Origin: Micromonospora sp. KC606
GTDB lineage: Bacteria > Actinomycetota > Actinomycetes > Mycobacteriales > Micromonosporaceae
Length of the DNA stretch: 64,000 bases
Assembly (NCBI RefSeq): GCF_004348675.1
Contig: NZ_SMKN01000001.1
Location: 1-64,000, forward strand
Reading direction: 5' to 3'
Below the pieces are notes generated by a model. It worked only from the letters and a program-made list of their open reading frames with translations, was not told the DNA's origin and searched no databases. The position numbers and the translations under genes are program-made. Position 1 is the first letter of the stretch. Each line of letters begins with the position of its first letter. Positions 47,698 to 63,074 of this stretch are shown here, in pieces.

Positions 47698-47698
47698 C

Positions 47699-47791
47699 GA
47701 CCCCAAGCCCTTCGTGTGGACCGAAACGGCTGACGACGTCCTCGAAACAATCGCCGCATACTGCCAACGAATCAACGACCCAGGACACTAG
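47699..47791 (+). pseudogene. IS630 transposase C-terminal tail
   Basis: Thirty residues in one frame, D-P-K-P-F-V-W-T-E-T-A-D-D-V and A-A-Y-C-Q-R-I-N-D-P-G-H, are the exact end of a common actinomycete IS630 transposase. The TAG at 47789-47791 shares a CTAG palindrome with the stop of the leftward gene next door. It marks the left border of the biosynthetic operon. Confidence 0.8.
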
Positions 47792-48669
47792 CTGTCGTGG
47801 TCGGTGGTCACCAGCCGCAGGGTGTCCTCCAGGTACCGGCGGCCGGCGGTGAGCCGGGGGTGCGGGTCGCCGTCACCGCAGTACTCCACACCCACCTCCG
47901 TCACCGCCGGTATCCGGGCGAGCCGCGCCAGCCACCGGTAGTTGTCGACGACTCCGGCGGCCGCGTCGACCGTGAAATCGGCGGCGCCGCCCCGGATCAG
48001 GCAGTTCTTCAGGTGGAAGTACGCCACCCGACCGGCCACCAGATCGATCACCGCCGGGTCGCGGTCGTCGGCGCCGAGCGCGACGGCGTTGGCGGGGTCG
48101 AGGGTGACGACCAGGTTGTCGTGGTCGGCGAGGTCGAGGAGGCGGGCGGTGGCGGCCACCGTGTCGTGGACCGTGTTGGGGTGCACCTCGACCGCCACGC
48201 GTACGCCTCGCTCGGCCGCGTACGCGGCGACCCGCCGATAGCAGTCGGCGACCCACTTCAGATGTACGTCGGACGCCAACGCGCTGCCGTTGCCCGTCCA
48301 GTCACGGTCCCAGTCCTGCCCGTCGCGCACCAGCCACCCGCCGGCGCCGTTGACGAGCGCGATGCCGTTGGCGGCGCAGGCGTCGACGACGGTACAGACC
48401 TTCTCCACCCACATCGCGCGCTCCGCCTCGTCGGCGGCGGTGAAGACCGCCCAGTAGTCGGCGCAGAACACCTCCACGCCGTACCGGCGACCGGTCCGCA
48501 CGGCGGCGGCGATGCCACTGCGGACGTTTTCGGCGTCGAACTCCGGATCGAAGTGCCACGACGACAGCTCGATCGCCGGCCACGCGTCGGCGGCGGCGAC
48601 CCGCAGCACGTGCCCCAATGGGTAGTCGCGCAGCGCGTAACTGTGCAGGACCGGGCGCACGCCGCTCAC
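47788..48669 (-). CDS. TIM-barrel sugar phosphate isomerase/epimerase
   Basis: A 293-residue AP-endonuclease-2-type TIM barrel. Metal-binding residues are apparent: Glu in V-A-V-E-V-H-P-N-T (about 167), Asp in V-T-L-D-P-A-N-A (about 200), His in Y-F-H-L-K-N (about 228) and Glu in V-G-V-E-Y-C-G-D-G (about 267). The family includes xylose isomerase, IolE/IolI of inositol breakdown and tagatose epimerases; it works on keto-sugars or keto-cyclitols. GTG 48669 overlaps the stop of the upstream oxidoreductase gene by four bases (GTGA). It is the last gene of the ten-gene operon, and together with that enzyme it could oxidise and then epimerise or dehydrate the ring. Confidence 0.85.
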   Translation of the reverse strand: MSGVRPVLHSYALRDYPLGHVLRVAAADAWPAIELSSWHFDPEFDAENVRSGIAAAVRTGRRYGVEVFCADYWAVFTAADEAERAMWVEKVCTVVDACAANGIALVNGAGGWLVRDGQDWDRDWTGNGSALASDVHLKWVADCYRRVAAYAAERGVRVAVEVHPNTVHDTVAATARLLDLADHDNLVVTLDPANAVALGADDRDPAVIDLVAGRVAYFHLKNCLIRGGAADFTVDAAAGVVDNYRWLARLARIPAVTEVGVEYCGDGDPHPRLTAGRRYLEDTLRLVTTDHDS

Positions 48670-49706
48670 CGGACTTCGGCCAGCGGTGCGCCGCCGGACA
48701 CCTGCACGGCGCCGGCGCCTGCCCTCGCGGCGGCGGTGTCCGCGATCACGTACAGGATCTCCAGGTCACGCAGCCCGCGCTCCAGGCTTACCTCGCCGGG
48801 CACCGGCTCGCCGGCCGCGCAGCGGGCAAGCAGCTCGTACTGGCTGCGGTACGGATCGACCGGCGTCAAGGCAGCGGCTGGGCGCCAACCCGAGGTGTCG
48901 CACATCTGCAACGCGCCGGTGCCGTCCATCTGCCAGGCCCCCGTGACCTGGATGATGCCGGCGTCGCCGACCACGGTGTAGCTCGCCACCTCGGCAGATG
49001 CGGGCTGCTCATGGAACGTGGCCGCGGTCTCGAAGTGCAGGTACCGGCGGTCGTCGAACCAGAGCGTGGCTTGCGCGTAGAGATCCGTTCGAGTCGGGTC
49101 GCCCACCGGCCAGGCGGCGGCCTGGCAGCGCACCGGGTCGGCGCCGAAAATGTCGATCGCGGTGAGCACCGGGTAGATGCCGAGGTCGGCGAGGCAGCCC
49201 AGACCGCTCTCGGCCGGCCTGCTGCGCCAGTCGTCCTTGCGCCATCCGAGGCGGGCCGCGACCATCGCTTGCGGCGTACCGATGGCGCCCGCGGCGACCA
49301 ACCGGCGTGCCTCCCGGTTGTAGACGTTGTGCTTCGACATGTACCCGACGATGGCGGGAGCTGCGGCGCCGGCCCCGGCGGTCACGATGTTTCGTCCGGA
49401 TGCGACGGTGTGCGCCAGCGGCTTGTCCACCACGACGGCGAGGCCGCGTTCCAGGGCGCGGATGGTGAAGCGCTCATGCAGGTGGTTGGGCGTGGCCACG
49501 TGTACCGCGTCCATGACGACGTCGAAGAAGGCGTCTTTGTCGGTGGTGAGAAAGGCGTCCGGGCAGTCCGGGGCCGCCATGGCAAGGGCCTGCGGGTCCG
49601 GGTCCAGCACCGCCGCGAGGCGGCCGCCGGGCATGTCCCGCAGTGCCGGGATCAGGGAGTGCCGGGTGAGGAAGCCGGCTCCGACGATACCGACGCGGTA
49701 GGTCAT
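48666..49706 (-). CDS. Gfo/Idh/MocA-family oxidoreductase
   Basis: A 346-residue NAD(P)-dependent dehydrogenase. The Rossmann domain starts R-V-G-I-V-G-A-G-F-L (about 4-13). The catalytic Lys is in V-V-D-K-P-L-A-H-T (about 91-99, the family E/D-K-P motif). A C-terminal beta-sheet domain follows from about 125. Homologues oxidise hydroxyls of sugars and cyclitols, for example IolG with inositol. ATG 49706 is chosen because GGAG lies seven bases upstream; a TTG in the same frame at 49718 is less likely. It follows the GT2 gene by 12 bases and is coupled to the isomerase gene. Confidence 0.88.
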   Translation of the reverse strand: MTYRVGIVGAGFLTRHSLIPALRDMPGGRLAAVLDPDPQALAMAAPDCPDAFLTTDKDAFFDVVMDAVHVATPNHLHERFTIRALERGLAVVVDKPLAHTVASGRNIVTAGAGAAAPAIVGYMSKHNVYNREARRLVAAGAIGTPQAMVAARLGWRKDDWRSRPAESGLGCLADLGIYPVLTAIDIFGADPVRCQAAAWPVGDPTRTDLYAQATLWFDDRRYLHFETAATFHEQPASAEVASYTVVGDAGIIQVTGAWQMDGTGALQMCDTSGWRPAAALTPVDPYRSQYELLARCAAGEPVPGEVSLERGLRDLEILYVIADTAAARAGAGAVQVSGGAPLAEVR

Positions 49707-49718
49707 GTCGTACTCCAA

Positions 49719-51143
49719 TCAGGATGGTGGGGCGACCGCCGGCTGCCGGGCGCCATAGAGGAAGAACGGCCCGTGGTCGAGGCTGCCGACTACGTTGCCG
49801 GCCAGGTGACCGACCAGGGCGTCCATGCCGTCGCGCAGGCCGGCCCAGTCCCTGCCGGCCCTCGGCGGGAGGTCCGGGCGCGGCCGGCACGACGCCGCGC
49901 CGGCGCTCGCGTGCCAGCGCCGCAACACCCTGCCCAGAGCGTGAGTGCCGGCACGCACCCGGCCGGCGTCCACGCCGAACATCGCCCCCGCAACCTCCTG
50001 GTCCGCGGTGATCGCGCGCAGCATGCGGTACCCCAGGCGCAGTTCGGCCGGATTGATGAGAAACCCGGCGTGCGGGCCCCAGTCCGCGAAGCGGTACTCA
50101 ACCCAACCGGTGTCCCGCCAGGCGAGCGCGTTCACCCCGGGCGGGATCGCGCCGGCCTCGGCCAGGGCGCGAGCCAGCCAGGCGTGGTCGTACCCCCAGG
50201 CGAACTGCTGGGCTCGGGTCGCGCCGGGGGTTTTGCGCGCCTCGTCGACGACCTCGGCGGCCGGCACCGCCCACAACTCGCCGAGGCGGGACAGCAACGC
50301 CATCGCGAGCATGTCCTCGGAACTGCCGTAGGGAGTGCCCTCGTAGAACAGCGGGCCACGGTGGCGGATCCACCACAGCACCGGGTCCTGCCGGACGAGC
50401 AGCCCGACAGTGCGGCCGGTGATTAGGCTGCCGTGGGAGGTGACCGACAGCAGGTCGTACCCGTCGCCGTTCAGTGCGCCGGGCAGCCGCCGCGATGCGG
50501 TGGCGGGGGCGTGCCCGGTTGTCCCGGGCACGCCGTGAGTGAGCGTCGTCGCGCCGCCCGGCCGGCGCCTCAGCCAGCCGTCGAGGTCCGGCACGGGAAC
50601 GACTCGGGGGCACGCAGCGATGGCGCGCGGGTTTGTGTCCAAGGTGGCCTGCAGCCGCGCCAACGCGCCCGGCGCCAGCGCGGTGTCATCGTCCAGGAAG
50701 AGCAGCAGCCGGCGCCGCAGCGCCGACCCGTCCGTGTGCGCGAGGAACGCGAGCCCGGCGTTGCGCGCCTGCGCCGCGGTGTAACGCGTGCCGGACGCCC
50801 GCGGCGCGGCGATGATGCGGTGTTCGCGGCCGGTGCCGCGCAGCAGTTCCCCGACCACCCGGGCGTCCGGCACCGAAAGTCCGTTGTCCACCACCAGTAG
50901 GGCGGCGCCCGGCACAGCGGCGAGCACGGTGGACAGACACAGCCACAGGCTTACGGTGCGCCCGCCGCCGGGCGGGCTGTAGGTGGGAATGAGCACGGTT
51001 ACGCCGGGAGCCGAAACGTCGCCGTCGAACGACCGCGGCGCGCCGGTCTCCGCGCCCGGCGCGAACCGAGCGAGGTACCCCGGCGCGGTCGCGCGCGTCG
51101 TCGTGACGGTCGGCATCGCTGTGGTCGTCGACATCGCCGTCAC
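49719..51143 (-). CDS. GT2-family glycosyltransferase
   Basis: A 474-residue GT-A glycosyltransferase. It opens V-T-V-L-I-P-T-Y at about 50-57, with a first Asp cluster in L-L-V-V-D-N-G (about 90) and the metal-binding L-F-L-D-D-D-T-A (about 150). A W-W-I-R-H-R-G stretch near 255 recalls galactosyl- and rhamnosyl-transferases. No signal peptide or membrane helix, so it acts in the cytoplasm. GTG 51143 lies seven bases after the permease stop, with GAGGG between; ATG 51134 is possible. It probably attaches a sugar to the cyclitol or to an intermediate before export. Confidence 0.85.
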   Translation of the reverse strand: MTAMSTTTAMPTVTTTRATAPGYLARFAPGAETGAPRSFDGDVSAPGVTVLIPTYSPPGGGRTVSLWLCLSTVLAAVPGAALLVVDNGLSVPDARVVGELLRGTGREHRIIAAPRASGTRYTAAQARNAGLAFLAHTDGSALRRRLLLFLDDDTALAPGALARLQATLDTNPRAIAACPRVVPVPDLDGWLRRRPGGATTLTHGVPGTTGHAPATASRRLPGALNGDGYDLLSVTSHGSLITGRTVGLLVRQDPVLWWIRHRGPLFYEGTPYGSSEDMLAMALLSRLGELWAVPAAEVVDEARKTPGATRAQQFAWGYDHAWLARALAEAGAIPPGVNALAWRDTGWVEYRFADWGPHAGFLINPAELRLGYRMLRAITADQEVAGAMFGVDAGRVRAGTHALGRVLRRWHASAGAASCRPRPDLPPRAGRDWAGLRDGMDALVGHLAGNVVGSLDHGPFFLYGARQPAVAPPS

Positions 51144-51149
51144 CGGCCC

Positions 51150-51974
51150 TCACTGGTAGCGGCTAACGAAGCCGCGCCGCTGGAACACCTGTAGCGAGAA
51201 CGTCGCGAACGCGAACGCTGCCACCATCAACGCGGCCGTGGCCAGCGCGGCCACGCCGATCTCGCCCCAGGGCGACGGGTCGCCGGTCGCCACCGCGCGG
51301 GCCGCGCTGAAGGTGTATGTCGTCGGCAACACGGCCGAGACCGGCCGGATCGCCTCCGGCAGCACCGACACCGGGTAGAACGCGCCGGACAGAGGCAGCA
51401 CGATGAAGAGCAGCGTGAAGGCGAGCGTCTCGGTGCCCGAGCCGAGAAACATCACCACGCCCATCACGATCAGCGCGACCGCCCAGCCGGTCAGCAGCAG
51501 CAGCGCCATCACCGGGACGATGGCGCCGCCCGAGTCGGTGAGGTCGAAGCTGAACAGGACGGCCGCCGCCACGGTCACCGCGGCTATCCCCACGCCGACG
51601 CGGATCAGTCCCTGTAGGGCCGCGCCGGCCACCCACTCGACCGGGCGCAGCGGCGTGGTGAGCAGGCTCGGCAACTGGCGCGCGTAGATCTCCTCGAAGA
51701 AGCTGGCCGAAACGGCGATCTGGGACTGGTACATGACGTGCCACATGACGATGCCGGCCACCACGGAGAGCGCGGTACGGGTCGCGGCGTCGCCGCCCGC
51801 CTGGCGCACGTACATCGCGATCGAGCCGTACAGGAGCATGTCGAAGACCGGCCAGACCGCGACGTCGACGAAGCGGTACGGGCTGCGCCGGGTCACGTAC
51901 CAGTGCCGGACCACCACGGCGGCGATCCGCCGCGGCGCGCTGCCCGCCGCGGCGGTCATCCTGGCGGCGCTCAT
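51150..51974 (-). CDS. ABC-2-type transporter permease
   Basis: A 274-residue membrane protein with six hydrophobic segments. It has the ABC-2 layout of antibiotic exporters such as DrrB: a cytoplasmic N-terminal helix (R-R-S-P-Y-R-F-V-D), an amphipathic F-F-E-E-I-Y-A-R-Q-L-P-S-L-L-T-T-P between helices 2 and 3, and a final V-F-Q-R-R-G-F. ATG 51974 overlaps the ATPase stop by ATGA; a longer frame to 52196 would lie inside the ATPase gene and is rejected. It would form the membrane channel with the ATPase. Confidence 0.9.
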   Translation of the reverse strand: MSAARMTAAAGSAPRRIAAVVVRHWYVTRRSPYRFVDVAVWPVFDMLLYGSIAMYVRQAGGDAATRTALSVVAGIVMWHVMYQSQIAVSASFFEEIYARQLPSLLTTPLRPVEWVAGAALQGLIRVGVGIAAVTVAAAVLFSFDLTDSGGAIVPVMALLLLTGWAVALIVMGVVMFLGSGTETLAFTLLFIVLPLSGAFYPVSVLPEAIRPVSAVLPTTYTFSAARAVATGDPSPWGEIGVAALATAALMVAAFAFATFSLQVFQRRGFVSRYQ

Positions 51975-52738
51975 GACGACGCTCCCGCGTTGGCGGCCTC
52001 GTCGTCCGCGGTGGCCTCCCGTAGGCGCAGGTACACGTCCTCCAGGCTGGACTGCCCGAGTTGCGCGGCGATCGTTTCCAGCGGCCCGTCGACCAGCACC
52101 CGCCCGGCCGCCAGGAAGATCACTCGCTGCGCCAACCGCTCCACCTCCACCATGTTGTGGCTTGTGATCAGCAGTGCGGTGCCCTGCCGGCGACACAAAT
52201 CGAGCAGGCGGCTGCGTACCCGCAGCGCGACGTCCGGGTCGAGCGAGGCGGTGGGCTCGTCGAGCACCAGCAACGCGGGCGCGTGCATGGTCGCCTTGAC
52301 CACACCGATCATGGTCCGCTGCCCGCTGGACAGGTCGCCGCCCCAGCGGTCCGCCAGGCCGTCCACATCAAACAGGCGGAGCCCCGCTCGGGCCTGTTCG
52401 CGTGGGCTTGTCGAGCCGTACAGCCGGGCGTACAGCGTCAAGAACTCCAAGACCCGCAGGTGCGGCGGGAGCGGTAGGTAGCCGGAGGCGAACCCCACCC
52501 GGGCCAGTGCCGAGCGGCGGGCCCGGCGGCTGCGCTGTCCCAACAGTTCCACCGTGCCGCCGTCCGGCTGGACGGCTCCGAGACAGCTCATCAGCGTGGT
52601 GGTCTTGCCGGCACCGTTGGGCCCGACGAGGGCCACCCGCTCGCCGGCGGCGATACTGACGTCCACCCCGTCCACGGCTGTCACCTGCCGGTATCGCTTG
52701 CGCAGGCCGCGTATTCGCAACACCGTGTCGCCAGTCAT
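51971..52738 (-). CDS. ABC transporter ATP-binding protein
   Basis: A 255-residue ATPase. Walker A is G-P-N-G-A-G-K-T-T at about 39-47, the Q-loop region follows, and the signature L-S-S-G-Q lies at about 136-140. Walker B is L-L-V-L-D-E-P-T at about 155-162 and the H-loop T-S-H-N at about 192. All are present. It belongs to the DrrA/CcmA drug-export branch. ATG 52738 overlaps the HAD stop (ATGA). With the permease it would export the product and may give self-resistance. Confidence 0.93.
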   Translation of the reverse strand: MTGDTVLRIRGLRKRYRQVTAVDGVDVSIAAGERVALVGPNGAGKTTTLMSCLGAVQPDGGTVELLGQRSRRARRSALARVGFASGYLPLPPHLRVLEFLTLYARLYGSTSPREQARAGLRLFDVDGLADRWGGDLSSGQRTMIGVVKATMHAPALLVLDEPTASLDPDVALRVRSRLLDLCRRQGTALLITSHNMVEVERLAQRVIFLAAGRVLVDGPLETIAAQLGQSSLEDVYLRLREATADDEAANAGASS

Positions 52739-53376
52739 CTGTCAACCCCCTCGTCCCGTGCCCTCCACAGCAGATCGCGCACCGCCGCGAGCGTCGGCGC
52801 ACACGCGTCGGCCTCGGCAAGCTGCGCCGGCGTGTGCGTAGTGGTGACCGCGAACACCGCGCATCCGGCGCTTTTCGCCGCCCGTACTCCGTCGGGCGCG
52901 TCCTCGATTACGACGCAGCGGTCCGGGGTCACACCCAGCCGACGGGCCGCGGTGACGTACCCCTCCGGAGCGGGCTTGCCGTGCCGGACGTCCTCGTCGT
53001 ACACGGCCACCGCGGGCAGCGGCAGTCCGGTCGACCGGAAGCACTCACCCACGAACCACCGGCTACCGGAGGTCACGATGGCCCAGGGGAGGCGCCGGCA
53101 GGCCCGCAGCAGCGGCGCGGCACCCGAAACCGGGCGCACCTCGGCCATCCGTTCCCGGGTCAGGGCGTCCAGGGCCTGCCGTTCGACCGCGGGATCGAGA
53201 TGTGGGGCGACCTCGTCCAACACGTCGGCCGTGCGGCGGCCGGACGTGCGTGCGAGCACGCGGCCCGGATCAAGCCCATGGCCGGCCGCCCAGCGGCTCC
53301 ACACTCCCCGGAACAGGTCACCGGTATCCAGCAACACGCCGTCGACGTCGAAGAGCACGGCCGCGGGAGCGCGCAC
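52735..53376 (-). CDS. HAD-family phosphatase or phosphosugar mutase
   Basis: A 213-residue HAD protein. Motif I is L-F-D-V-D-G-V-L-L-D (about 7-16), with the nucleophile Asp and the D+2 acid. Motif II is I-V-T-S-G-S (about 98-103), motif III is the Lys in K-P-A-P-E-G-Y, and motif IV is I-E-D-A-P-D-G-V. A helical cap lies between I and II, as in beta-phosphoglucomutase and sugar-phosphate phosphatases. GTG 53376 was chosen since GGGAGG ends eight bases before; an in-frame GTG at 53385 overlaps the ribosome site. It could remove or move the phosphate put on by the ROK kinase. Confidence 0.85.
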   Translation of the reverse strand: MRAPAAVLFDVDGVLLDTGDLFRGVWSRWAAGHGLDPGRVLARTSGRRTADVLDEVAPHLDPAVERQALDALTRERMAEVRPVSGAAPLLRACRRLPWAIVTSGSRWFVGECFRSTGLPLPAVAVYDEDVRHGKPAPEGYVTAARRLGVTPDRCVVIEDAPDGVRAAKSAGCAVFAVTTTHTPAQLAEADACAPTLAAVRDLLWRARDEGVDR

Positions 53377-53377
53377 G

Positions 53378-54862
53378 TCACCCACCTCCCGTGAGTACTG
53401 TGGGGAACTCGGCCCGGTCCGCCGTGGCCAACGGCACCAGCAGGCTGCGGCCCGGCAGTGACCGGTGGGTGGCGGCGGCGATCCGGCGCAGCGTCCGGGC
53501 GGCGGCGCGGTCCGGCGGGGCAGCGCCGACGTCGGTTTCGGCGCCGCGGGTGACGATCAGCACCGCTACCGTCGGATCGGGGTACACGGCCTGGAAGGAG
53601 TGGTGGTTCCAGGCACTGCCCTCGTGCACCTCGCACGGGCGCCCGGTGGCTGCGGCGAATTGGCCGGCGGGCGGGATGTTCCGCTCGGCGTCCGACCAGT
53701 ACCCGACGACGTGCAGCCGCGCCAACTCCGGTCGGGATGCCAGCCAGGCCGAGGCGGCACCGGGCAGGTCGGCCGCGGCGACCGGCGGGCAGGACGGGTC
53801 GTCGGGGTCGGGGTGTGCCAGGCGCTCCTTGTACACGCGCACGTTCGCGTGGTCGGCGACGCCGAGGCCCGCGCGCAGGCCGACGCTCGCCACGAACACC
53901 CCGGCGGCGTACAGCCCGTCGAGCAGCGCTGGCAGGTCGCGACGCAGACCGCCGAGGTCGAGGACGACGTCGGGTGGATCGGCGTCGACACCGGCGGGCG
54001 CGACCTCCACCGTGGACTGAAGCTCCACCGTGGGTCGAAAGCCGCCGGGCTTGCCGCCGAGCACCTGCCGACCGAGCTGCAGCAGCCAGCGCCGCAGTCC
54101 CGGCCCGGCCCAGGGCGGCACCACGAACCGCAGGCGCGGGGTGCCCTCCGGCGGCACCGCGACGGCGTGCCGGGCCGCCGCAGCGCCGATCCGGTGGTGC
54201 CGGGCCAGGAATCGCGGGTACGCGGCGGCGAGCGCGGCACCGTCCACGACGGCAGCGGCGGCCAGAAACGCGGTGGACAGCGGGGCGCCGAGCATCGCCA
54301 CCTGGTCGGGGCCGCCACGCGGGGACAGCGGAAACGTGTCGGGCGGTGCCCCTTCGTCGCGCAGCCACACGAGCCGGCCGCCACCGCGTGGGGGTACCGC
54401 CTCGGCCAGCCGTCGGGTCTCCAGCGTCGCGCCGGAGCCGGATACCGCGAGGACCCCTCGCGACGCCCCGGCACCCGCGGCCAGTACCTGCTCGATCGCG
54501 GCGGGGTCGAGGCTGTCCAGCGTTGTCAGGCCAGCGCTGCCGCCGGTCGTCTCGATCAGCGCCCGCACGGCGAAACACCAGCCGCCGGTACCCAGCAGCA
54601 CCACCTCGGCCCCGGCCGGCACGTTGAGGGCGGCCTGGACGGCGGCGACGCTCTGCCGAACCGCGCTCCACGGTGGCGGCGAGGCCCAGCCCAGCCGCGC
54701 CGAACCAGCGGTCGTGCACTGCTCGGCCACGACGCCCGCCGCGCCCGCGCGGGAGCCGGCCGCGGCGGAGAGTACCGCGGACCACAGCGCGTCGGAGTCG
54801 AGCGCGGCGAGGCGGGTCATGCCGCCGCGCGCTGGTCCGGCCGCGTGCGAGCGTCCGGTCAT
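53378..54862 (-). CDS. Glucose-6-phosphate-isomerase-like protein
   Basis: A 494-residue SIS-fold protein. A first SIS half at about 85-200 has V-V-L-L-G-T-G-G-W-C-F-A-V-R at about 87-100. A phosphate-binding loop S-G-S-G-A-T-L-E-T lies at about 141-149, like the S-K-T-x-x-T-x-E-T of true phosphoglucose isomerases. A second half follows, with N-H-H-S-F-Q at about 419-424 resembling the catalytic N-G-Q-H-S-F block. Overall similarity to housekeeping enzymes is low. ATG 54862 overlaps the upstream stop (ATGA); ATG 54820 is an alternative. It may isomerise a phosphorylated aldose/ketose or cyclitol in the pathway. Confidence 0.72.
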   Translation of the reverse strand: MTGRSHAAGPARGGMTRLAALDSDALWSAVLSAAAGSRAGAAGVVAEQCTTAGSARLGWASPPPWSAVRQSVAAVQAALNVPAGAEVVLLGTGGWCFAVRALIETTGGSAGLTTLDSLDPAAIEQVLAAGAGASRGVLAVSGSGATLETRRLAEAVPPRGGGRLVWLRDEGAPPDTFPLSPRGGPDQVAMLGAPLSTAFLAAAAVVDGAALAAAYPRFLARHHRIGAAAARHAVAVPPEGTPRLRFVVPPWAGPGLRRWLLQLGRQVLGGKPGGFRPTVELQSTVEVAPAGVDADPPDVVLDLGGLRRDLPALLDGLYAAGVFVASVGLRAGLGVADHANVRVYKERLAHPDPDDPSCPPVAAADLPGAASAWLASRPELARLHVVGYWSDAERNIPPAGQFAAATGRPCEVHEGSAWNHHSFQAVYPDPTVAVLIVTRGAETDVGAAPPDRAAARTLRRIAAATHRSLPGRSLLVPLATADRAEFPTVLTGGG

Positions 54863-57039
54863 GACGGCGCTCGCAACTGGGGTAGCGCGGTGCCGTCGAC
54901 CGCACGTACCAACCGGCCCGGCAGCGTCAGGTCGACCACCACGCGCAGCGCCGGATCGCCGTTCACGCGTCCGGTAGCCGCGAGGTCGTCCAGGACGGCC
55001 GGTGCGGCGTCGAGCGACACCACGTGGCTGACCAGTGGGCCCAGCCGCAGTCCGTGGGGGCCCGCGCAGAGGTCGAGCGCCTCGCGGTACTCGTCGGCCG
55101 AGGCACCACGCGAGCCGAGCAGAATGCCGGCGCGGCCGTCCGGCAGTCGCACCGTCCGCCGCTCTCCGCACCGGATCGGGTGGGTCTGCACCGCGTCGCC
55201 GCCGGGCACGCGCACGGTGTCCCCGGGCAGGAAGCCCCCGAACAGGTGGACCGTGGCACCGTCCGCCAACGCGGGCCACAGGTCCGCCAGGATGTCGGGT
55301 CCGGCGCCGGAGACGCACACCACGACCGCGTCGACGCCGGCGCCGCCGGTGGCGTCCAGCACGGCCGCAGCGAGGCCGGCGGAGATCGGCAGGCAGTCCT
55401 GGTCGGACACCACACCGCGGGCCACCGCCAGGCGCAGGCGGTCGCCGCCGCGGTTGGCGAGGAGCACCCGCTCCGCTCCCCACCGGCGGGCCAGCAGCAC
55501 GTGCAGCAGGCCGGAGATTCCACCGCCGACCACCAGGACCCGCCGACCGCGGCCGGAGTCGCGGGCCAGCCGCAGGGAGCGCACCGCGCACGCGAGCGGC
55601 TCCAGCAGCACCCACTCGGCCCGCCCCTCATCGGGTAGTCGCACCGCCTGGCCGCGCTCGGCGAGGGCACCGTCCCAGATCGCGATTTCGCGGAGGACCC
55701 CGGGCTGGTTGTGGCCGATCTTGTCGTGGTCGTCGTGGGGATGGTTGGGGTTGACCCCGATCACGTGGCCGGGGGCGACGGCGTGCACGGCCGCGCCCAC
55801 CTCGACGACCTGGGCGACGCACTCGTGGCCGAGCACGCCGGGCTCGCAGCCGCGCTCGCCGCGCAGCATCTGCAGGTCCGTGCCGCAGATGCCGGCGTAC
55901 GCGACGCGGGCCAGGAACTGCTCCCGGCCGCAGCGTGGCCGGGGCCGGAGGCGCACCGTGGCGGTCGGTTCACCCACCGGCTTGTGCAGCTCGCGGTACT
56001 GGCCGCGGCGGGCGGCCAGGAACTCCGCCATGCCGAGGAGGCTGCCGTCGCCGTCGCATGACGGGCGCACCAGCGCGTCCAGGTCGTCCGCGGTCCATCC
56101 GGTGAACCAGCCGCCCTGCGGCAGCAGCTCGCCCAGGTTGGCGCGCAGCGCGGCGTACCACGGCGCGCCGACGCCGTTGGCGAACCCGCCCATGACCACG
56201 AACCGCCGCAGCCCGAGCAGCGCCGACATGTGCAGCAGTTGCGCGGCGAGCGGACGGGTGGACACCCGCAGCACCGCGGCGGCGAACTCGTCGGCGGTGC
56301 TGGCTACCTGGGCGAGGTCGCGACTGGTCAGGCGCTCCGGCACGCCTTCGGCGAGTACGTGCAGCTTCGAATCGCGCCAGCGTCGCGGCCACGCCGTGGC
56401 GAGCAGCGCCACGAGCCGCACTGTCGCCGGCCCCGACACGTACGAGCAGAGGTCGCTGGTGTTGCCGCACTCGCACCACGGCGTGCCGGCGCCGTCGAGC
56501 TCGGCCGGTGGGTCGACACGGACGTGGCCGACTTCGCCGCCCAGCCCGTCGGCGTCGAGGAGCAGCTTGCGGTCGAACGGCAGGGCGTCGTCGAAAACCT
56601 TGACCGCGACGCCGGTACTGACCGTGACCAGGCCGAACCGGCCCAGCGACCGGTACCGCCAGGCCGCGGCGGCAATATCGTTGGCGACCGTGATGCTGGC
56701 CCACGGCAGTCGGGCCGCCATCGCCGCGGCGAGGTCGAAGCCCTCGCTCGGCTCGTGCCACAGCATGGACGCGTTGCGGATCCGGCCCGTGGCGTCGACG
56801 GTGGCACCCACCGCGAGCCCGACCTCGCGCGCCCGCCCTGGCGTCTCCGACCGCACGCGGGCCACGGCGTCGGCTATCCGGTCCAGGTGCTCCGCTCGGA
56901 TCGAGCCGCCCGGGGGCGGCTTGGGGGTGGCGAACCGCACCGGACCGGGCAGCAGGCGCCCGCCGACGCAGACCCCGATCCGCGTGGTGGTGCCGCCCAT
57001 GTCGACGCAGATCGACGCGGCATCAGTCAACGACGTCAC
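54859..57039 (-). CDS. Fusion: ROK sugar/cyclitol kinase + zinc alcohol dehydrogenase
   Basis: A single 726-residue protein. Residues 1-350 are a ROK kinase: ATP loop D-M-G-G-T-T-T-R at 13-20, catalytic Asp in V-A-N-D at about 121 and G-H at 171-172. The zinc knot C-E-C-G-x-x-x-x-x-C is at 189-198. Residues 355-726 are a medium-chain dehydrogenase: catalytic zinc ligands Cys385 in G-I-C-G-T-D and His405-Glu406, and NAD loop V-G-G-G-I-S-G at about 504-510. The four structural-zinc cysteines are absent. ROK kinases phosphorylate C7-cyclitols in acarbose-type pathways. GTG 57039 has AAAGGAG 8 bases upstream. The linker region is continuous with no stop. Confidence 0.85.
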   Translation of the reverse strand: MTSLTDAASICVDMGGTTTRIGVCVGGRLLPGPVRFATPKPPPGGSIRAEHLDRIADAVARVRSETPGRAREVGLAVGATVDATGRIRNASMLWHEPSEGFDLAAAMAARLPWASITVANDIAAAAWRYRSLGRFGLVTVSTGVAVKVFDDALPFDRKLLLDADGLGGEVGHVRVDPPAELDGAGTPWCECGNTSDLCSYVSGPATVRLVALLATAWPRRWRDSKLHVLAEGVPERLTSRDLAQVASTADEFAAAVLRVSTRPLAAQLLHMSALLGLRRFVVMGGFANGVGAPWYAALRANLGELLPQGGWFTGWTADDLDALVRPSCDGDGSLLGMAEFLAARRGQYRELHKPVGEPTATVRLRPRPRCGREQFLARVAYAGICGTDLQMLRGERGCEPGVLGHECVAQVVEVGAAVHAVAPGHVIGVNPNHPHDDHDKIGHNQPGVLREIAIWDGALAERGQAVRLPDEGRAEWVLLEPLACAVRSLRLARDSGRGRRVLVVGGGISGLLHVLLARRWGAERVLLANRGGDRLRLAVARGVVSDQDCLPISAGLAAAVLDATGGAGVDAVVVCVSGAGPDILADLWPALADGATVHLFGGFLPGDTVRVPGGDAVQTHPIRCGERRTVRLPDGRAGILLGSRGASADEYREALDLCAGPHGLRLGPLVSHVVSLDAAPAVLDDLAATGRVNGDPALRVVVDLTLPGRLVRAVDGTALPQLRAPS

Positions 57040-57067
57040 CGTCACCTCTCCTTTCGGCCGGGGCCCG

Positions 57068-59365
57068 TCAGCGGCCAGGACCGTGTGTCCGGGCCGCGAG
57101 TTCCGCGCAGGCGTCCGCCACCAGGTCGGCACTGATCTCGTCGATTGAGTCGATGAAGTCGCCGACGCCGATGCGGCGGGGCACCACGAGGTGCAGCCAC
57201 CCGGCCTTGTGCGGCACCACCTCCCCCTGCAGCCGGCGCCAGAGCGCGGCCGGGTCGCACACCGGGTTCCACAGTGCGAGGCCGGTCCGCCGCAGCAGCG
57301 CCAGCAGCCGGTCGAGGTCGGTGCGCCCCAGGTATCCGGTGCGGAAGGCCAGGTACGACGAGAGCGCCATGCCGATCGCGACCGCCTCGCCGTGGCGCAG
57401 CCGGTATCCGGACATGGACTCCAGGGCGTGGCCGAACTCATGACCGAAGTCGGGCAACCGGCGGAGGTTCTCTTCGATCGGGTTGGCGGAGAGCTGGCGG
57501 AGCATCGCCCCGATCGCGCGGTCGAGGATCTCCCGCACCTGCGGGGTGTCCCGGGCTGCCAGCACGTCGGCGTGATGCCGCTCGACCAGGGCGAACAGCT
57601 CGGCGTCGCAGACCACCGCCATCTTGATCACTTCGGCCAGCCCGCAGCGCAACTCCGCTGGCGCCAGGGTGCGCAGGAACGCCGTGTCGCACAGGCAGGC
57701 GAGCGGCGGATGGTACGCGCCGAGCAGGTTCTTGTGGCCGTTGAGGTTGACGCCGACCTTGAGACCGACACCGGCGTCGACCATGCCGACGAGCGTGGTG
57801 GGCACCCGGATGTACGGGGTGTCGCCGCGGTAGAGGTAGGCCGCGTACCCGACGACGTCCATCAGGGTGCCGCCGCCGACCACGAGTAACCGGTCGTCCC
57901 CGCCCAGTCCGAGCCCCTCGGCGACCCGCAGCACAGTGGCCACCTGGGTCAGGTTCTTGGTGTGCTCGGTCGCGGTGATCGGCAGTACGGTGAATCGGGC
58001 GAGATACCCCCGGTTCCGGCACCCGGACAGCAGCCGATGCACCCGGTCGACCTGGTCCGGCGCGTACGGGTCGACCACCGCCAGCACCTGGCAGCGCTCG
58101 GGCAGCAGATCGGCGAGGGCGGCGCCGTGTGGGGCGAGCACCTCGTCGGTGAAGCGCACCGGGAAGTTGGCCGGAACGTCGACCCGGAGCTGGGTGCCCA
58201 TGACCATCCCGGTGCCCCGGCTCGGCAACCCTGCCACCGCCGTCAGGTCCGCGTCGGACAGAGCGCCGCGAGTAGCCCTTCCCGGCCGGCTCGACCCGCC
58301 GGAGAGGTCCGCCTGATCGCTGAGTGCCCGCGCCAGCGCGGCCCTGTCCACCGTTACCGGCTCGCCGGCACTGTCCGCGGTAGGCAGCGTCAGCGTGACC
58401 GTGCCGTCGCCGGACGCCGCGTTGGCCACCCAGCGTTGCGCGGTCGCGGCGTCGACCGCCGCGGCGGGGCGTAGAGCCAGTCTTTCGGCCAGCCCGTCGA
58501 GCGCGCGTACGGCCTGTGCCGGCAGCCGGCCGAGCCGGTGCGCGACCCGGGCGGCGGTCAGCAGGGACCAGGCCCGCCGCTCCGGTTCGGCCAGTGCGGT
58601 GGGGGCCAGTGGCAGCCACGCCTCGCCGTTCCGCCACGCCGGGTGGCCCGGGCCGAGCCGCTGGCACAGCCGGAGGACCGCCGAGAGCGCGTCGGCCTGA
58701 CAGCCGTCCACATCTGATCGGTCCAGCCGGTCGAGCAACTGCGGGTCGAGCACGGCCAGCGACAGCAGCGCGACCCGCTCCGCCGGGCGGGCCAGCACGC
58801 CCTCCTCGTCGACGATCACGTGGGTGCGGCGGGCCAGCGCGGTGATCCCTTCCTCGTCGAGAGCGGCGCGGAGTCCGTCCCGAAGGCAACCGACCACGGC
58901 CGCGAGGTCACGGTGGACGCGGACCGCCGCGGTGTGCCGCCGAAACGAGGCCGCGGCCACCGCCACCACCCGGCCGGTGCGCTCACCGCCGAACGCGACC
59001 ACCGCGTCGCGCCGCCCGAGCTGGGCCTTCACGGCCGCCTCGACGACGTAGCCGCACGCGCCCACCCCGGCTACCCGGGGTTCGTCGCCGGCGGCCCCGG
59101 CGTCCGCGTCGACGCAGTAGAAATCGTCCAGATCGCCGCGGCGCTGCGCGGCGCGCAGGTAACCGATCAGCGGTTCGCTGCGTTCGGCGGCCATGTCGTC
59201 GCGGACCACGAGCAGCCGCCGGGCCGGGCCCCAGGCGTCCGCCAGCACCGGGTTGTCCGGCGCGAACAGGTCTCGGACCACGTCGAGCCGGAACCCTGCG
59301 GTAATGGTGGCTCGCAGTGTCGCCCCCGCCGGCGCGGACGGGACCCTTGTTACCACGTCAGGCAT
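57068..59365 (-). CDS. Tandem sugar phosphate cyclase (degenerate + active domain)
   Basis: A 765-residue protein made of two cyclase domains. The C-terminal one (about 390-755) is complete: NAD loop V-V-G-G-G-T-L-M-D-V-V-G-Y at about 495-507, V-P-T-T-L-V-G-M-V-D-A-G-V-G at about 521-534, G-V-N-L-N-G-H-K-N near 538-546, and zinc ligands E577, H642/H646 (G-H-E-F-G-H) and H658 (H-G-E). The pattern fits sedoheptulose-7-phosphate cyclases (EEVS type) better than dehydroquinate synthase. The N-terminal domain (about 15-360) follows the same order, but F-G-G-E-R-T replaces the NAD loop, the P-T-T-L and zinc-His motifs are gone, and H-G-E is N-G-E. ATG 59365 follows GAGGAA. Confidence 0.85.
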   Translation of the reverse strand: MPDVVTRVPSAPAGATLRATITAGFRLDVVRDLFAPDNPVLADAWGPARRLLVVRDDMAAERSEPLIGYLRAAQRRGDLDDFYCVDADAGAAGDEPRVAGVGACGYVVEAAVKAQLGRRDAVVAFGGERTGRVVAVAAASFRRHTAAVRVHRDLAAVVGCLRDGLRAALDEEGITALARRTHVIVDEEGVLARPAERVALLSLAVLDPQLLDRLDRSDVDGCQADALSAVLRLCQRLGPGHPAWRNGEAWLPLAPTALAEPERRAWSLLTAARVAHRLGRLPAQAVRALDGLAERLALRPAAAVDAATAQRWVANAASGDGTVTLTLPTADSAGEPVTVDRAALARALSDQADLSGGSSRPGRATRGALSDADLTAVAGLPSRGTGMVMGTQLRVDVPANFPVRFTDEVLAPHGAALADLLPERCQVLAVVDPYAPDQVDRVHRLLSGCRNRGYLARFTVLPITATEHTKNLTQVATVLRVAEGLGLGGDDRLLVVGGGTLMDVVGYAAYLYRGDTPYIRVPTTLVGMVDAGVGLKVGVNLNGHKNLLGAYHPPLACLCDTAFLRTLAPAELRCGLAEVIKMAVVCDAELFALVERHHADVLAARDTPQVREILDRAIGAMLRQLSANPIEENLRRLPDFGHEFGHALESMSGYRLRHGEAVAIGMALSSYLAFRTGYLGRTDLDRLLALLRRTGLALWNPVCDPAALWRRLQGEVVPHKAGWLHLVVPRRIGVGDFIDSIDEISADLVADACAELAARTHGPGR

Positions 59366-59398
59366 CGCAAGGCCCGCTTCCTCGCGTCCTGGTCCTGA

Positions 59399-60865
59399 TC
59401 AGGCTGGGACAACGGCGGGGTGCTGGCGGCGTGCCGCGATGTCGCGCCGCAGCAGGTCGACCAGCGGCTGCCAGGGCTGGCAGTTCTCCAGTCGGAACGA
59501 GCGCATCATCTGGTCGATGTCGTCCTCGCCCATGCCGCGGAAGAGCTCGCCGAACTGCGGCAACAGCGCCTCCGAGAAGAGGATCTGCAGGACCGTCCGG
59601 CAGACCATGAACTCGCTTCCCCACGGGTACGGGTTCCAGTCGGGGCACTCTTGCGCGAGGGTCTTGTGGATCGGGCCGAGCACGTGACCCATCTTCCGGC
59701 GGTCGCCGCCCCAGAGGTCCACCGCCAGGCGTGCCTTCTTCTCGAGAATCGGCCGGATCCGCTCCAGGTACGGGCCGTTCGCGGCGAGGCGAAGCGGCGC
59801 CGCGACCCCGACATCCTTGTACGACCAGTAGGTCCAGCTCGCGTTGTACTTGCGGAACACGTCGAGCTGGTCGCCGAGCAGCCGCAGGCGTTCCTCCTCC
59901 ACGTCCGGCCACACGGCGTTGAACTCACCCACGACGATGGGCGTGCCCGTTTCCCGCATGTAGACGGTGCGGTGCAGGAAGCTCCGCTCCACCTCGTCCT
60001 TGTCCCAGTACGCCTCGTCCTCCGACTCGGCCGCCGGGCCGCCGCCAGCGTCGAGCACGTGGATGGGTCGGTGCCGGCCCGGGTAGCGGCTGCCCGGTGT
60101 GTACCCCGGCGCCGGGTAGTCGTGCGGGCAGTAGACGGTGTTGGGCCACGGCTCGCCGAAGAAGTCGAAGTCGAGCGCGTACCGGTTGCCGTCCAGGAAC
60201 AGAATGTGGTTTTGGTCGATCTCCCGGATCGCCTCGACCAGGCGCTGGTAGAACGGGCCCACCTTCTCGGCGCTCGGATCTGCCGGCTCGTTGATCGGGT
60301 TGTAGCCGGCGACCCACGGGTTGTCCTTGTACCGGGACGCGATCGCCCGCCACAGGTGTACCACCCGGTCCTGGAACGTTCGGTGCACCCAGAATTGCGA
60401 GGTGTGCGTGGGGTTGTCGCAGTGCCAGTCCTGGTGTTGCCAGCCGGGAACGGTGTGCAGGTCGAGTACCGTGCGGATGCCCTGCGCGCCGCAGAGCTCG
60501 ATCACCCGGTCGAGATAGCGAAAGCCGTTCTCGTTGATCTCAAACGGCGCGTCGTCACTTTCGAGATACTTGTAGCTGAACGGCAGGCGGACCATGTTGA
60601 TGCCGAGGGAGGCGAGGTACGCCGCGTCATCGGCGGTGAAGAAGTGCTCGAGAAATCGGTCGAAGAAGAAATCCCGCAATCCTGGCCCCAGCACCTGCCC
60701 GACCGCTGCCCGCTGGCCCTCCTCGTATCCCGGAAAACCAGTTATCCAGTTCTCCATGTTGAGCCAGCCGGCGACTCCGATGCCGAACAATGTGACCGGC
60801 GTGCCGTCGGAGTCGACGAGGTCTGAGCCACTCACCCGAAGAAACGACGCATTGTTGGTGGACAC
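59399..60865 (-). CDS. GH5-type glycoside hydrolase without signal peptide
   Basis: A 488-residue (beta/alpha)8 hydrolase. It starts near a W-L-N-M-E-N-W-I-T-G-F-P-G segment and has N-M-V-R-L-P-F-S-Y. The acid/base Glu lies in Y-N-P-I-N-E-P and the nucleophile Glu in V-V-G-E-F-N-A-V-W, and a W-S-Y-K-D loop follows. This is the clan A layout of exo-glucanase-like GH5 enzymes, which cleave beta-glucosides. GTG 60865 follows GGAGG (60873-60877) by seven bases, and the start is polar with no hydrophobic run, so the enzyme should stay inside the cell. As first gene of the operon it may trim a glycosylated precursor or work on the product. Confidence 0.87.
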   Translation of the reverse strand: MSTNNASFLRVSGSDLVDSDGTPVTLFGIGVAGWLNMENWITGFPGYEEGQRAAVGQVLGPGLRDFFFDRFLEHFFTADDAAYLASLGINMVRLPFSYKYLESDDAPFEINENGFRYLDRVIELCGAQGIRTVLDLHTVPGWQHQDWHCDNPTHTSQFWVHRTFQDRVVHLWRAIASRYKDNPWVAGYNPINEPADPSAEKVGPFYQRLVEAIREIDQNHILFLDGNRYALDFDFFGEPWPNTVYCPHDYPAPGYTPGSRYPGRHRPIHVLDAGGGPAAESEDEAYWDKDEVERSFLHRTVYMRETGTPIVVGEFNAVWPDVEEERLRLLGDQLDVFRKYNASWTYWSYKDVGVAAPLRLAANGPYLERIRPILEKKARLAVDLWGGDRRKMGHVLGPIHKTLAQECPDWNPYPWGSEFMVCRTVLQILFSEALLPQFGELFRGMGEDDIDQMMRSFRLENCQPWQPLVDLLRRDIAARRQHPAVVPA

Positions 60866-61362: not shown

Positions 61363-62037
61363 ATGAGGCCGGCCAGCGCGGAGGTCACCGTGGCGCTCGC
61401 CGACGACCAGACCCTCTTTCGCGACGGGGTCCGCGAGATGCTCGCCGCCGATCCGTACCTCCGGGTCGTCGGCGAGGCGGCACACGGCGAGGCGGCCATC
61501 GCGCTCTGTGTCGAACGGCAGCCCGACGTGCTCCTGCTCGACGTGGAGATGCCTGGCCCGGGCGCCGCCGTGGTGCTGCGGCAGCTTCGCCGGTTGTGCC
61601 CGCGTACCCGAGCCGTCGTGCTGACCATGCATGACGACGCCGACATCGTGCACGAGGTGCTCGAATGCGGGGCCGTCGCGTACCTGGTCAAGACCATCCA
61701 CCGGGCCGAGCTGGTCGCGGCGGTGATCGCGGCGGCCGGCGAGTCGGCGACCGTCCGGCTGTCGGTGTCCCGGCGGACCCTCGAGCGTTTGGTCAAACAG
61801 CGGCGCACCACGCCCGAGGGTGCGCTGACCGAGCGGGAGCTGGAGGTCTTACGCCTGACGGCACAGGCACTGAGCAACGCTCAGATCGCCAGCCGGCTAC
61901 GCATCACCGAGGCGACGGTCAAGCGCCACCTGACGAACATCTACGGGAAGCTGCAGGCTGTCTCTCGGGTCGACGCGGTCCGTAAGGCGGCAGCCGCCTA
62001 CCTGATCGAGGGTAATCAGGGCAGATCCACCAAATGA
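61363..62037 (+). CDS. NarL/LuxR-family response regulator (orphan)
   Basis: A 224-residue regulator. The receiver domain (about 8-125) has the acidic pair A-D-D-Q, the phospho-Asp in V-L-L-L-D-V-E-M-P at about 60, the conserved Thr in V-L-T-M-H-D and Lys in Y-L-V-K-T. The LuxR helix-turn-helix (about 155-215) has L-T-E-R-E-L-E-V-L-R and I-A-S-R-L-R-I-T-E-A-T-V-K-R-H. No kinase gene is nearby, so phosphorylation would come from a distant partner or not at all. It is the likely pathway-specific regulator. Its last 22 bases overlap the convergent glycosyltransferase gene. Confidence 0.9.
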   Translation: MRPASAEVTVALADDQTLFRDGVREMLAADPYLRVVGEAAHGEAAIALCVERQPDVLLLDVEMPGPGAAVVLRQLRRLCPRTRAVVLTMHDDADIVHEVLECGAVAYLVKTIHRAELVAAVIAAAGESATVRLSVSRRTLERLVKQRRTTPEGALTERELEVLRLTAQALSNAQIASRLRITEATVKRHLTNIYGKLQAVSRVDAVRKAAAAYLIEGNQGRSTK

Positions 62038-62909
62038 TCCTCGGCGTTGCCCAGGTGCCGGTAGTAGCTCCACAGGTCGTTGTGCGGCAGTTCGACACGT
62101 TCGCCCCGCTCGAGCTCCCACCACACGCCCGCCCAGTGCACCAGGAAGATCGGCGGCGACCAGTCCGTCACCAGCCGGCCATCGCGCACCGCGCCGAGCG
62201 GGTCGCCGGCCCACCGCTCCTGCGGGATGTCGCCCGGCGGCGGCTGACCCTCGCCGACCGCCCCGGCCAGCACCCGCAGGCTGGTGTACGGCCGGCCTGA
62301 CGTCACCATCAGATAATTCAGCAGCGGCATCTCCAGGGTCACCAGCGCCATGTGCCTCGCAAGCGCCAGTGCGGCGTCCAACCGCGGGCTCACTTCGGCG
62401 AACCGCAGGCACTCCTTGCGCGAGGCGATGAACTGGGTGCCGGCCGCATACGCGACCTGGTCGGGCGTCAACACCTCGGCGTCGTGGATGGACTCGTGCC
62501 ACACCCACCGAAAGAGGGCCGGATGGTCTGAGACTGTCGTGACAAAAGCGAACTTGTCGAGAAAGTCGTAGGCGAAGCTCATATCCCGCAGCACGATCGT
62601 GTCCGTGTCCACGTAGATGAACTCGTCGTACTCACCCTCCCAGGCGGCCAGCTTGCGGTAATGTCCCTTGACCTCTCCGTGAAATGCTCGGCTGATGTCG
62701 TCACAAGCCGCCAGGATGGCCGGGTCGCCGGACCAGATCGTAAAGTCGAAACGCGACTGCAGTCGCAGCAGGTCGTCAATATTGTCCGCAAACGGAATCA
62801 AGCACAGCGGCAACGATTTGTGGTAGGTCCGAAAACTGTTCAAGAATGCAATGGCCCGATCCAACACGTAATCATTGGCCAGAAAGTACACTCCGCGCCG
62901 AGGAGCCAT
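62016..62909 (-). CDS. GT-A-fold glycosyltransferase (GT8-like)
   Basis: A 297-residue protein. It opens G-V-Y-F-L-A-N-D-Y-V-L-D-R-A-I-A-F-L-N-S-F and carries a D-x-D metal site in F-I-Y-V-D-T-D-T-I-V-L at about 95-105. A late conserved block F-L-V-H-W-A-G-V-W lies at about 259-267, and there are no membrane helices. This is the layout of nucleotide-diphospho-sugar transferases related to GT8. ATG 62909 is favoured because the domain starts there, with GAGAGG about 12 bases upstream; the frame is open to 62966. A dyad similar to that of the main operon lies about 100 bases upstream, so it may share control and add a sugar to the same product. Confidence 0.8.
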   Translation of the reverse strand: MAPRRGVYFLANDYVLDRAIAFLNSFRTYHKSLPLCLIPFADNIDDLLRLQSRFDFTIWSGDPAILAACDDISRAFHGEVKGHYRKLAAWEGEYDEFIYVDTDTIVLRDMSFAYDFLDKFAFVTTVSDHPALFRWVWHESIHDAEVLTPDQVAYAAGTQFIASRKECLRFAEVSPRLDAALALARHMALVTLEMPLLNYLMVTSGRPYTSLRVLAGAVGEGQPPPGDIPQERWAGDPLGAVRDGRLVTDWSPPIFLVHWAGVWWELERGERVELPHNDLWSYYRHLGNAEDHLVDLP

Positions 62910-63006
62910 TTCGGAACACCCGCCTCTCCCGAAGACCGGCATCAAACTATCAGAACGGAGACGCATAGCTCAGGTAGCGAATCGGTGCAGCCCGGATGGG
63001 TATTAG

Positions 63007-63026: not shown

Positions 63027-63074
63027 TTGGAGAGGGTGTAGGTCAGGACCCCGGTACTACAACCCGGATCTTGA

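Follow-up and report, generated by a model that had tools for sequence, protein, structure and literature searches.

What does a compact set of ten leftward genes in the genome of Micromonospora sp. KC606 make, and with what kind of cyclase does its chemistry begin? The genes lie in a 64,000-nucleotide stretch (contig NZ_SMKN01000001.1, positions 1 to 64,000; the window), on the minus strand from 60865 to 47788, in the order GH5 glycoside hydrolase, cyclase, ROK kinase/medium-chain dehydrogenase (MDR) fusion, phosphoglucose isomerase (PGI)-fold protein, HAD phosphatase-like protein, ABC ATPase, ABC-2 permease, GT2-like glycosyltransferase, Gfo/Idh oxidoreductase and TIM-barrel enzyme. A preliminary description, made from the sequence alone, had read them as an operon for a glycosylated C7-cyclitol or carbasugar, with overlaps or gaps of at most 33 bases. 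The layout was borne out: all ten open reading frames (ORFs) are present, and with the chosen starts the intergenic distances are -4, 12, 6, -4, -4, -8, -4, 22 and 33 bases (-8 to +33). Since adjoining genes share 4 or 8 bases or stand 6-33 bases apart, the ten genes are presumably read as a single transcript. We consider it likely that the operon serves C7-cyclitol (carbasugar) biosynthesis, here in a full form with export, and that its central enzyme is a sugar phosphate cyclase of a new kind. This reading is favored because the C-terminal half of the cyclase is closest to ValA among solved structures, by sequence and by model, and is set apart from dehydroquinate-type cyclases by a 100/100 branch, and because cyclase, ROK and MDR are linked, the fusion is the best match in its genome for the cyclase-linked ROK and MDR of Agrobacterium vitis, and the gene order is conserved in related loci. 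Domains of the ten proteins were assigned by Pfam and NCBIfam model searches.

A cyclase is present, as first described, but it proved to be a tandem protein of which only the C-terminal half rises above the Pfam cut-offs for DHQ_synthase and DHQS_C (residues 463-704):

57068..59365, minus strand: tandem cyclase, 765 amino acids (ORF; AlphaFold2 model with pLDDT 78.4 and pTM 0.79)
58211..59365, minus strand: N-terminal half of the cyclase, a putative degenerate sugar phosphate cyclase copy (hhalign to the C-terminal half, 98.2-98.3%)
57068..58210, minus strand: C-terminal half of the cyclase, an active-looking sugar phosphate cyclase (ValA 4p53 match; fingerprint residues)

The best solved relative of the C-terminal half was ValA (4p53), found at 5.3e-65 and, by phmmer with the half alone, at 2.2e-65, and the modelled half aligned with it at a VIA Z of 45.0, with 39% identity over 356 residues. 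E578, H642, H658, K536 and K581, which we take to be the metal and catalytic residues, are kept in this half, and the metal and catalytic residues are kept in 14/14 family members.

The N-terminal half could have been an unrelated extension. This was rejected: a profile of eight actinobacterial N-terminal halves found the C-terminal profile by hhalign at 98.2% with a score of 104.9, while none of the controls did: 30 column shuffles stayed at or below 16.5, reversing the profile gave 13.5, and other cluster proteins, compared as single sequences, reached at most 25.8. The sub-threshold Pfam DHQ_synthase matches of the N-terminal half searched alone (0.0016 in the window, 2.4e-4 in locus L003) also counter it. 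As a single sequence the window's N-terminal half scored 71.5 against the C-terminal profile, and at a relaxed setting (mact 0.1) the four longest N-terminal halves aligned residues 12-359 on 3-379 (340 columns, 98.3%). In the AlphaFold2 model of the whole tandem protein, built from nine sequences, the order of strands and helices, as read, is alike in both halves. The alignment shows that the N-terminal half is without the GHEFGH motif, the RHGEA motif and the metal-binding Glu; by sequence, it is apparently a dead, degenerate copy of the C-terminal fold. Such a pseudoenzyme would most likely act in place of the partner subunit with which cyclases ordinarily dimerise. With chosen starts, the eight other loci found through the cyclase (L003-L010) carry 180-387 residues ahead of the C-terminal half. 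The N-terminal half from Nostoc matched the second part of the C-terminal half at 92.2% and the actinobacterial N-terminal profile at only 0.2%. When the cyclase was used as query, a match starting at residue 1 came only from the window's genome, none of 61 relatives matched before residue 293, and in 394 genomes of the class no match started before residue 211 among the matches listed.

To which cyclases does the C-terminal half belong? Our main tree was unrooted and held 61 rows (L048, with an unreadable reading frame, was dropped), most of them typed by fingerprint, with ValA, one desmethyl-4-deoxygadusol synthase (DDGS) and three 3-dehydroquinate synthases (DHQS) from solved structures. 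Nine tandem C-terminal halves formed one clade (support 100/99). A 100/100 branch split 23 DHQS and 2-deoxy-scyllo-inosose synthase (DOIS) rows from the other 38, and a 100/86 branch split 29 rows on the side of DDGS and 2-epi-5-epi-valiolone synthase (EEVS) from the tandem and DHQS rows. The tandem clade thus sits between DHQS/DOIS and EEVS plus DDGS, nearer the latter in branch length. A second tree from a quick search added five more members and EboD, DDGS and DHQS of Nostoc, the EboD being told by its TatD and UbiA neighbors and the DDGS by methyltransferase and ATP-grasp neighbors; L048 and, as long branches, L041, L016 and L047 were dropped. There, 14/14 family members stood together (Shimodaira-Hasegawa-like approximate likelihood ratio test, 99), with EboD just outside the tandem, EEVS and DDGS sequences, its long branch making the position uncertain.

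The fingerprint is a mosaic. Asp639, His646, Lys720 and His725 occur in 14/14 family members, by comparison with residue numbers and roles that we assume for ValA and DHQS. Position 639 holds Asp as in EEVS, where DHQS has Asn and DDGS Ala; position 646 holds His as in DHQS, DOIS and EboD, where EEVS and DDGS have Pro (28 of 29 rows, with Ser in one). Identity as a 3-dehydroquinate synthase was rejected on Asp639, which is not Asn in 14/14, on the 100/100 branch and on the NCBIfam aroB model, which gave 210 bits against a cut-off of 305; the grouping with DHQS that had been named beforehand as speaking against a cyclitol pathway did not appear in the unrooted tree. Identity as EboD was rejected as well, since the cyclase missed the PRK06203 cut-off (225 bits against 333). 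EboD shares the Asp639/His646 pair, so that the pair is not exclusive to the tandem family, but it differs in its single domain, its TatD and UbiA neighbors and its PRK06203 score, 600 bits in Nostoc (L090) compared to 225. Cyclases from A. vitis and Streptomyces clavuligerus missed both the AroB and PRK06203 cut-offs too. As judged from these alignments and trees, the tandem C-terminal halves are a separate clade, a putative sugar phosphate cyclase of a new kind.

Two alternatives concern what this cyclase makes. The narrower one is an ordinary EEVS pathway, in which 2-epi-5-epi-valiolone would enter a rearranged valienol- or streptol-type route and the tandem half and PGI-like protein would be lineage decoration. 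It accounts for Asp639 and His725, both as in ValA, and for ROK and MDR partners like those in A. vitis and S. clavuligerus, but not for His646 in place of the EEVS/DDGS Pro in 14/14 members, nor for the separate 100/99 clade or the lack of a VOC epimerase among the ten genes. Forcing the tandem clade together with 17 EEVS-type rows cost 15.8 log units and was not rejected by the approximately unbiased (AU) test (p-AU 0.161), and we hold this alternative to be quite possible, though short of probable. The original assignment is thus partly supported: the cyclase lies outside DHQS and nearer EEVS/DDGS, while EEVS identity does not follow. In the second alternative the cyclase takes another heptulose or hexulose phosphate and the product is not a valiolone-type C7-cyclitol. 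The mosaic fingerprint would allow this, as would the same Asp/His pair in EboD, which has no known substrate (PMC5133447); the C-terminal half is nearer EEVS/DDGS than DHQS, however, and its ROK and MDR partners are of the cyclitol kind, making such a substrate improbable.

The partners of the cyclase bear directly on the C7-cyclitol reading. They form a single protein:

56041..57045, minus strand: ROK-family kinase domain of the fusion, candidate cyclitol 7-kinase (Pfam ROK 5.3e-14)
54859..56040, minus strand: MDR domain of the fusion, AcbL-like candidate cyclitol dehydrogenase/dehydratase (Pfam ADH_N 9.9e-11; ADH_zinc_N below cut-off)

ROK-MDR is one open frame in the window and in 11/11 loci holding both. 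The cyclitol kinases AcbM and ValC are ROK-like (PMC9200736), and AcbL dehydrates 5-epi-valiolone 7-phosphate (PMC7081202). In A. vitis and S. clavuligerus, cyclase, ROK and MDR are separate genes. The cyclase-linked ROK of A. vitis found the fusion as its best match in the KC606 genome (3.6e-18; next 6.2e-6), as did the A. vitis MDR (8.5e-19; next 2.7e-4), which in the Streptomyces lincolnensis L4 genome matched the fusion alone at 1e-10. The kinase-dehydrogenase first noted in the window is thus of the cyclase-linked A. vitis kind. The A. vitis plasmid locus (L057; cyclase, ROK, MDR, SDR) has the cyclase-ROK-MDR order of the operon but differs in its separate genes, its single-domain cyclase with Pro, and the absence of any PGI, GH5, Gfo or TIM match within 6.5 kb. 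The S. clavuligerus plasmid locus (L055) likewise groups ROK, cyclase, MDR-type and HAD genes, but has a DegT aminotransferase, a GNAT protein, a ribulose-phosphate 3-epimerase and a cyclase with Pro; its cyclitol-type cluster (L055 6954-15983) also contains a GHMP-kinase gene. On a Streptomyces plasmid, L056 5926-13065 holds a long-branched cyclase variant with a cupin, an aminotransferase and three ABC genes.

Is the gene set kept elsewhere? We compared 13 related loci, L003-L010 found through the cyclase and L092-L096 through the PGI-like protein; because of this recruitment, the presence of the cyclase and PGI-like genes is partly by construction. The trio of cyclase, ROK and MDR, the C7-cyclitol core, is together in the window and in 11/13 loci, L007 being without ROK-MDR; the three travel together. 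All ten genes in order were found in L003 (Actinoallomurus soli), L095 and L096. A version made up of GH5, cyclase, ROK-MDR, PGI, Gfo and TIM genes, without HAD, ABC-2 permease or GT2, occurs in L006, L008, L092, L093 and L094, and L004 has the six core genes plus GT2, with HAD on the other strand. In L009 (Nostoc calcicola) the genes seen are cyclase, ROK-MDR and PGI, the same set as in L005, where the contig ends 1.1 kb past the PGI-like gene; in L010 it ends inside ROK. A gene order shared across genera in this way is far beyond chance, and the operon is conserved in a few actinomycetes and, in part, one cyanobacterium. Since six-gene sets exist without GT2 and ABC-2 permease, glycosylation and ABC export appear optional and the six-gene core is likely the pathway. 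The "glycosylated" product proposed earlier therefore applies only to the GT2-bearing variant (the window and 4/13 loci), where the GT2 match itself is weak and without a credible counterpart in the PDB.

Strong matches to the PGI-like profile (at most 2.8e-94 per genome) were found in 8/249 genomes of the Plantactinospora family, three of them already known, in 1/250 of the Actinoallomurus family and in 1/192 of the Nostoc family; among 397 genomes of the order and 396 of the phylum, the window's own was the only one. In the Actinoallomurus-family scan, 25 of 26 matching genomes had E-values of 3.7e-17 or weaker and were not counted; around the best of these weak matches, in G1585 (L113), no cluster protein matched at 1e-4. 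The Plantactinospora-family scan also gave a match in G1232 (3.6e-11). This patchy spread fits horizontal transfer or repeated loss.

Several loci showed features of their own. Plantactinospora alkalitolerans has two separate cyclase loci, L004 and L007, differing in gene content. Beside the first lie a carbamoyltransferase, a HAD protein and an MFS pump (L004 4670-8417), neighbors that suggest a carbamoylated product there. In N. calcicola (L009 13723-17677), the ROK-MDR and PGI-like genes are separated by one for a PhyH-type dioxygenase and followed by a glucokinase gene. For S. lincolnensis, a C7-cyclitol cluster with SLCG_5038 (HAD) and SLCG_5041 (SalM/AcbL-like) has been predicted, and four carbasugars are cited from strain DSM 40355 (PMC10717218). 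In S. lincolnensis L4 (L005), the cyclase query matched only two genes at 1e-10, one for the tandem cyclase and one of DHQS type, and up to the contig end nothing matched HAD.

The fourth gene encodes the PGI-like protein:

53378..54862, minus strand: PGI-fold protein, 494 amino acids, candidate phospho-cyclitol isomerase/epimerase (profile, Foldseek, VIA and hhalign matches to PGI)

It matched no Pfam family at E 0.01. Searched with its profile, solved structures were led by PGI (hmmsearch, 1zzg 1.7e-7); its model matched 7nss in Foldseek (1.3e-6, rmsd 9.1) and gave a VIA Z of 22.3 (rmsd 4.4-4.7, 309-325 residues); and hhalign against twelve presumed actinobacterial PGIs, with L099 and L102 excluded from the set, reached 98.9% over 376 columns. 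With phosphoglucose isomerase (Tal/PGI type) it shares the overall fold, the SIS motifs and, in the NHHS loop, one His, and it differs in having no Pfam match and Gln where PGI has its glutamate. As modelled, the protein belongs to the PGI fold and is without its catalytic Glu. It may stand in for the absent VOC epimerase.

The remaining genes of the operon are as follows:

59399..60865, minus strand: GH5 glycoside hydrolase, 488 amino acids (Pfam Cellulase 2.1e-35; best PDB match 9ku5, GE32, 1.1e-93)
52735..53385, minus strand: HAD sugar phosphatase-like protein (Pfam Hydrolase 4e-22; PRK11587 sugar phosphatase 117 bits, below the cut-off of 282)
51971..52738, minus strand: ABC ATPase, NodI/DrrA-like (NodI/DrrA-type models all below cut-off)
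51150..51974, minus strand: ABC-2 permease, DrrB-like by a below-cut-off match (Pfam/NCBIfam)
49719..51143, minus strand: GT2-like glycosyltransferase, weakly assigned (Pfam 23.9 bits against a cut-off of 23.3)
48666..49706, minus strand: Gfo/Idh/MocA oxidoreductase (Pfam 2.7e-17; best PDB match 5a02, aldose-aldose oxidoreductase, 5.5e-24)
47788..48669, minus strand: xylose-isomerase-like TIM barrel, AP_endonuc_2 (Pfam 4.4e-20; 3dx5, AsbF, 3.1e-6)

The NEP and GEF motifs of GH5, which we take to be catalytic and which hold both glutamates, are kept in 9/9 aligned rows. L096 was excluded because its GH5 is split over two frames into overlapping pieces (14984-16410), by gene decay or sequencing error. 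The GE32 of the literature appears to be another enzyme than that of 9ku5. Against the PDB, the GT2-like protein found antibody chains only (E 0.015). For the last gene, called a TIM-barrel isomerase at first, the barrel held up, while the nearest annotated relatives are AsbF (3dx5), presumably a dehydratase and the sole PDB match at 0.01, and, at 24 bits, the model for the dehydratase IolE. Four residues of this enzyme that we assume to be metal ligands (Glu, Asp, His, Glu) are kept in 11/11 rows.

Several of these families raise the alternative of a catabolic operon in which GH5, Gfo/Idh, TIM barrel, ROK and PGI-like protein degrade a glycoside or cyclitol. Glycoside catabolism commonly involves GH5, Gfo/Idh and TIM-barrel enzymes, and GH5 looks intracellular by eye (no signal peptide was noticed, no prediction having been run). 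A ring-forming cyclase with its metal and catalytic residues in 14/14 members does not fit degradation, nor does an ABC-2 type pump in a set of ten genes where Pfam and NCBIfam matched no substrate-binding protein; we judge catabolism very unlikely.

For C7-cyclitol biosynthesis, we infer a route from the genes, their order and conservation, the predicted folds, the fusion and the fingerprint. The C-terminal half of the tandem cyclase would close sedoheptulose 7-phosphate to a valiolone-type keto-cyclitol, whose C7 hydroxyl the ROK domain would phosphorylate. The PGI-fold protein might then move or invert the ketone or hydroxyl at C1/C2, the AcbO step of acarbose, and the fused MDR domain might reduce or dehydrate the ring. 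As a pair, Gfo/Idh and the TIM-barrel enzyme could carry out an oxidation followed by elimination or isomerisation, in the way that IolG and IolE/IolI act on inositols, and dephosphorylation would fall to HAD. Where the full gene set is present, GT2 would attach a sugar and the ABC-2 pump export the product. GH5 could trim a beta-glycoside of the product, for maturation or self-protection.

A number of observations weigh against this reading. The C-terminal half falls outside the characterised EEVS and DDGS rows, in a tree that held no 2-epi-valiolone synthase (EVS) reference, and its Asp/His pair is common to EboD, an enzyme without known reaction. L007, with cyclase, PGI, Gfo and TIM genes, has neither ROK-MDR nor GH5, the PGI-like gene of L004 matches residues 13-203 only, and the GT2 assignment is weak. 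Gln266 occupies what we take to be the catalytic glutamate position of PGI (Glu of the AESTGK motif), with Gln in 12/12 covering rows, L004 being too short; the Foldseek TM-scores of the PGI-like protein are 0.41-0.49 at best ranks (0.41 and 0.49 for 7nss), and several top VIA matches end near residue 354 of 494. For these last reasons, the PGI-like protein may not be an isomerase. A bolder form of the proposal, put forward tentatively and with more doubt than belief, is that a new cyclase activity yields a keto-cyclitol unlike the EEVS, EVS and DDGS products, with the pseudoenzyme half completing or regulating the active site and a PGI-fold isomerase working without the PGI glutamate, together giving a nitrogen-free carbasugar class not yet isolated. 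In the open-access literature we found neither a tandem cyclase of such kind nor a valiolone pathway with a PGI-like protein; an earlier description elsewhere, in subscription papers or gene-cluster databases, is possible.

How does the operon compare with known pathways? It shares a core with validamycin and acarbose, namely a ValA-like cyclase half, a ROK kinase, a dehydrogenase/dehydratase of the cyclitol type and a HAD-type phosphatase. Unlike them, it has a tandem cyclase, His646 and a fused kinase-dehydrogenase, adds PGI-fold, Gfo/Idh, TIM and GH5 genes, and among its ten genes Pfam and NCBIfam matched no aminotransferase, nucleotidyltransferase, pseudoglycosyltransferase or VOC epimerase. 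The missing aminotransferase and nucleotidyltransferase agree with what had been reported, and membership in a C7N aminocyclitol pathway was rejected on the lack of a match to an aminotransferase and a cyclitol nucleotidyltransferase among the ten genes, no search for these two having been made in the remaining genome. Streptol contains no nitrogen. It is a known C7-cyclitol (PMC8599487), so that, of the suggestion that the chemistry would differ by lacking nitrogen, the absence of an amination gene among the ten holds and the novelty of a nitrogen-free C7-cyclitol does not.

Two genes beyond the operon had also been counted with it. One is a divergent regulator:

61363..62037, plus strand: LuxR-type response regulator, candidate cluster regulator (Pfam Response_reg and GerE)

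It is of the LuxR type, and a homologue occurs in 8/13 loci, with 58-60% identity in L095 and L096 and only 31-34% in six others, a weak link for so large a family. In L095 and L096 a histidine kinase gene precedes the regulator; none lies between GH5 and the regulator here (60866-61362), so it looks orphan in the window. The other, a second glycosyltransferase-like gene at 62016-62909, was rejected as a cluster member, recurring in 0/13 loci; its product matches Npun_R2821/R2822 only (119 bits against a cut-off of 250).

The G+C content is 72.8% in the operon, 67.8% in window positions 1-47787, 64.8% in 60866-64000 and 73.9% in the piece carrying the genome's own DHQS gene. Base composition was rejected as a sign of foreign origin, as the operon is close to the piece with the DHQS gene; the parts out of line are the flanks. 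Transposase or recombinase genes lie at a distance on either side (window 3836-4633, 43 kb away; L053 1663-5987, starting about 4.8 kb from the GH5 start). A LysR regulator on the minus strand (44153-45048) is apparently split over two frames, its DNA-binding part at 44287-45048 and the remaining substrate domain at 44153-44605. An MFS transporter on the plus strand (46921-47733), stopping 55 bases short of the operon end, matches only positions 7-227 of 347 of its Pfam profile and looks truncated.

C7-cyclitol pathways are the source of acarbose and validamycin. The cluster described here contributes a separate cyclase clade, a fusion of kinase with dehydrogenase, and a PGI-fold protein possibly replacing an unrelated epimerase. 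As a candidate natural pseudo-dimer, the tandem protein illustrates a way in which one active site of a sugar phosphate cyclase could be lost. Since the cluster is small and compact and occurs in named actinomycete strains, its product can be sought directly.

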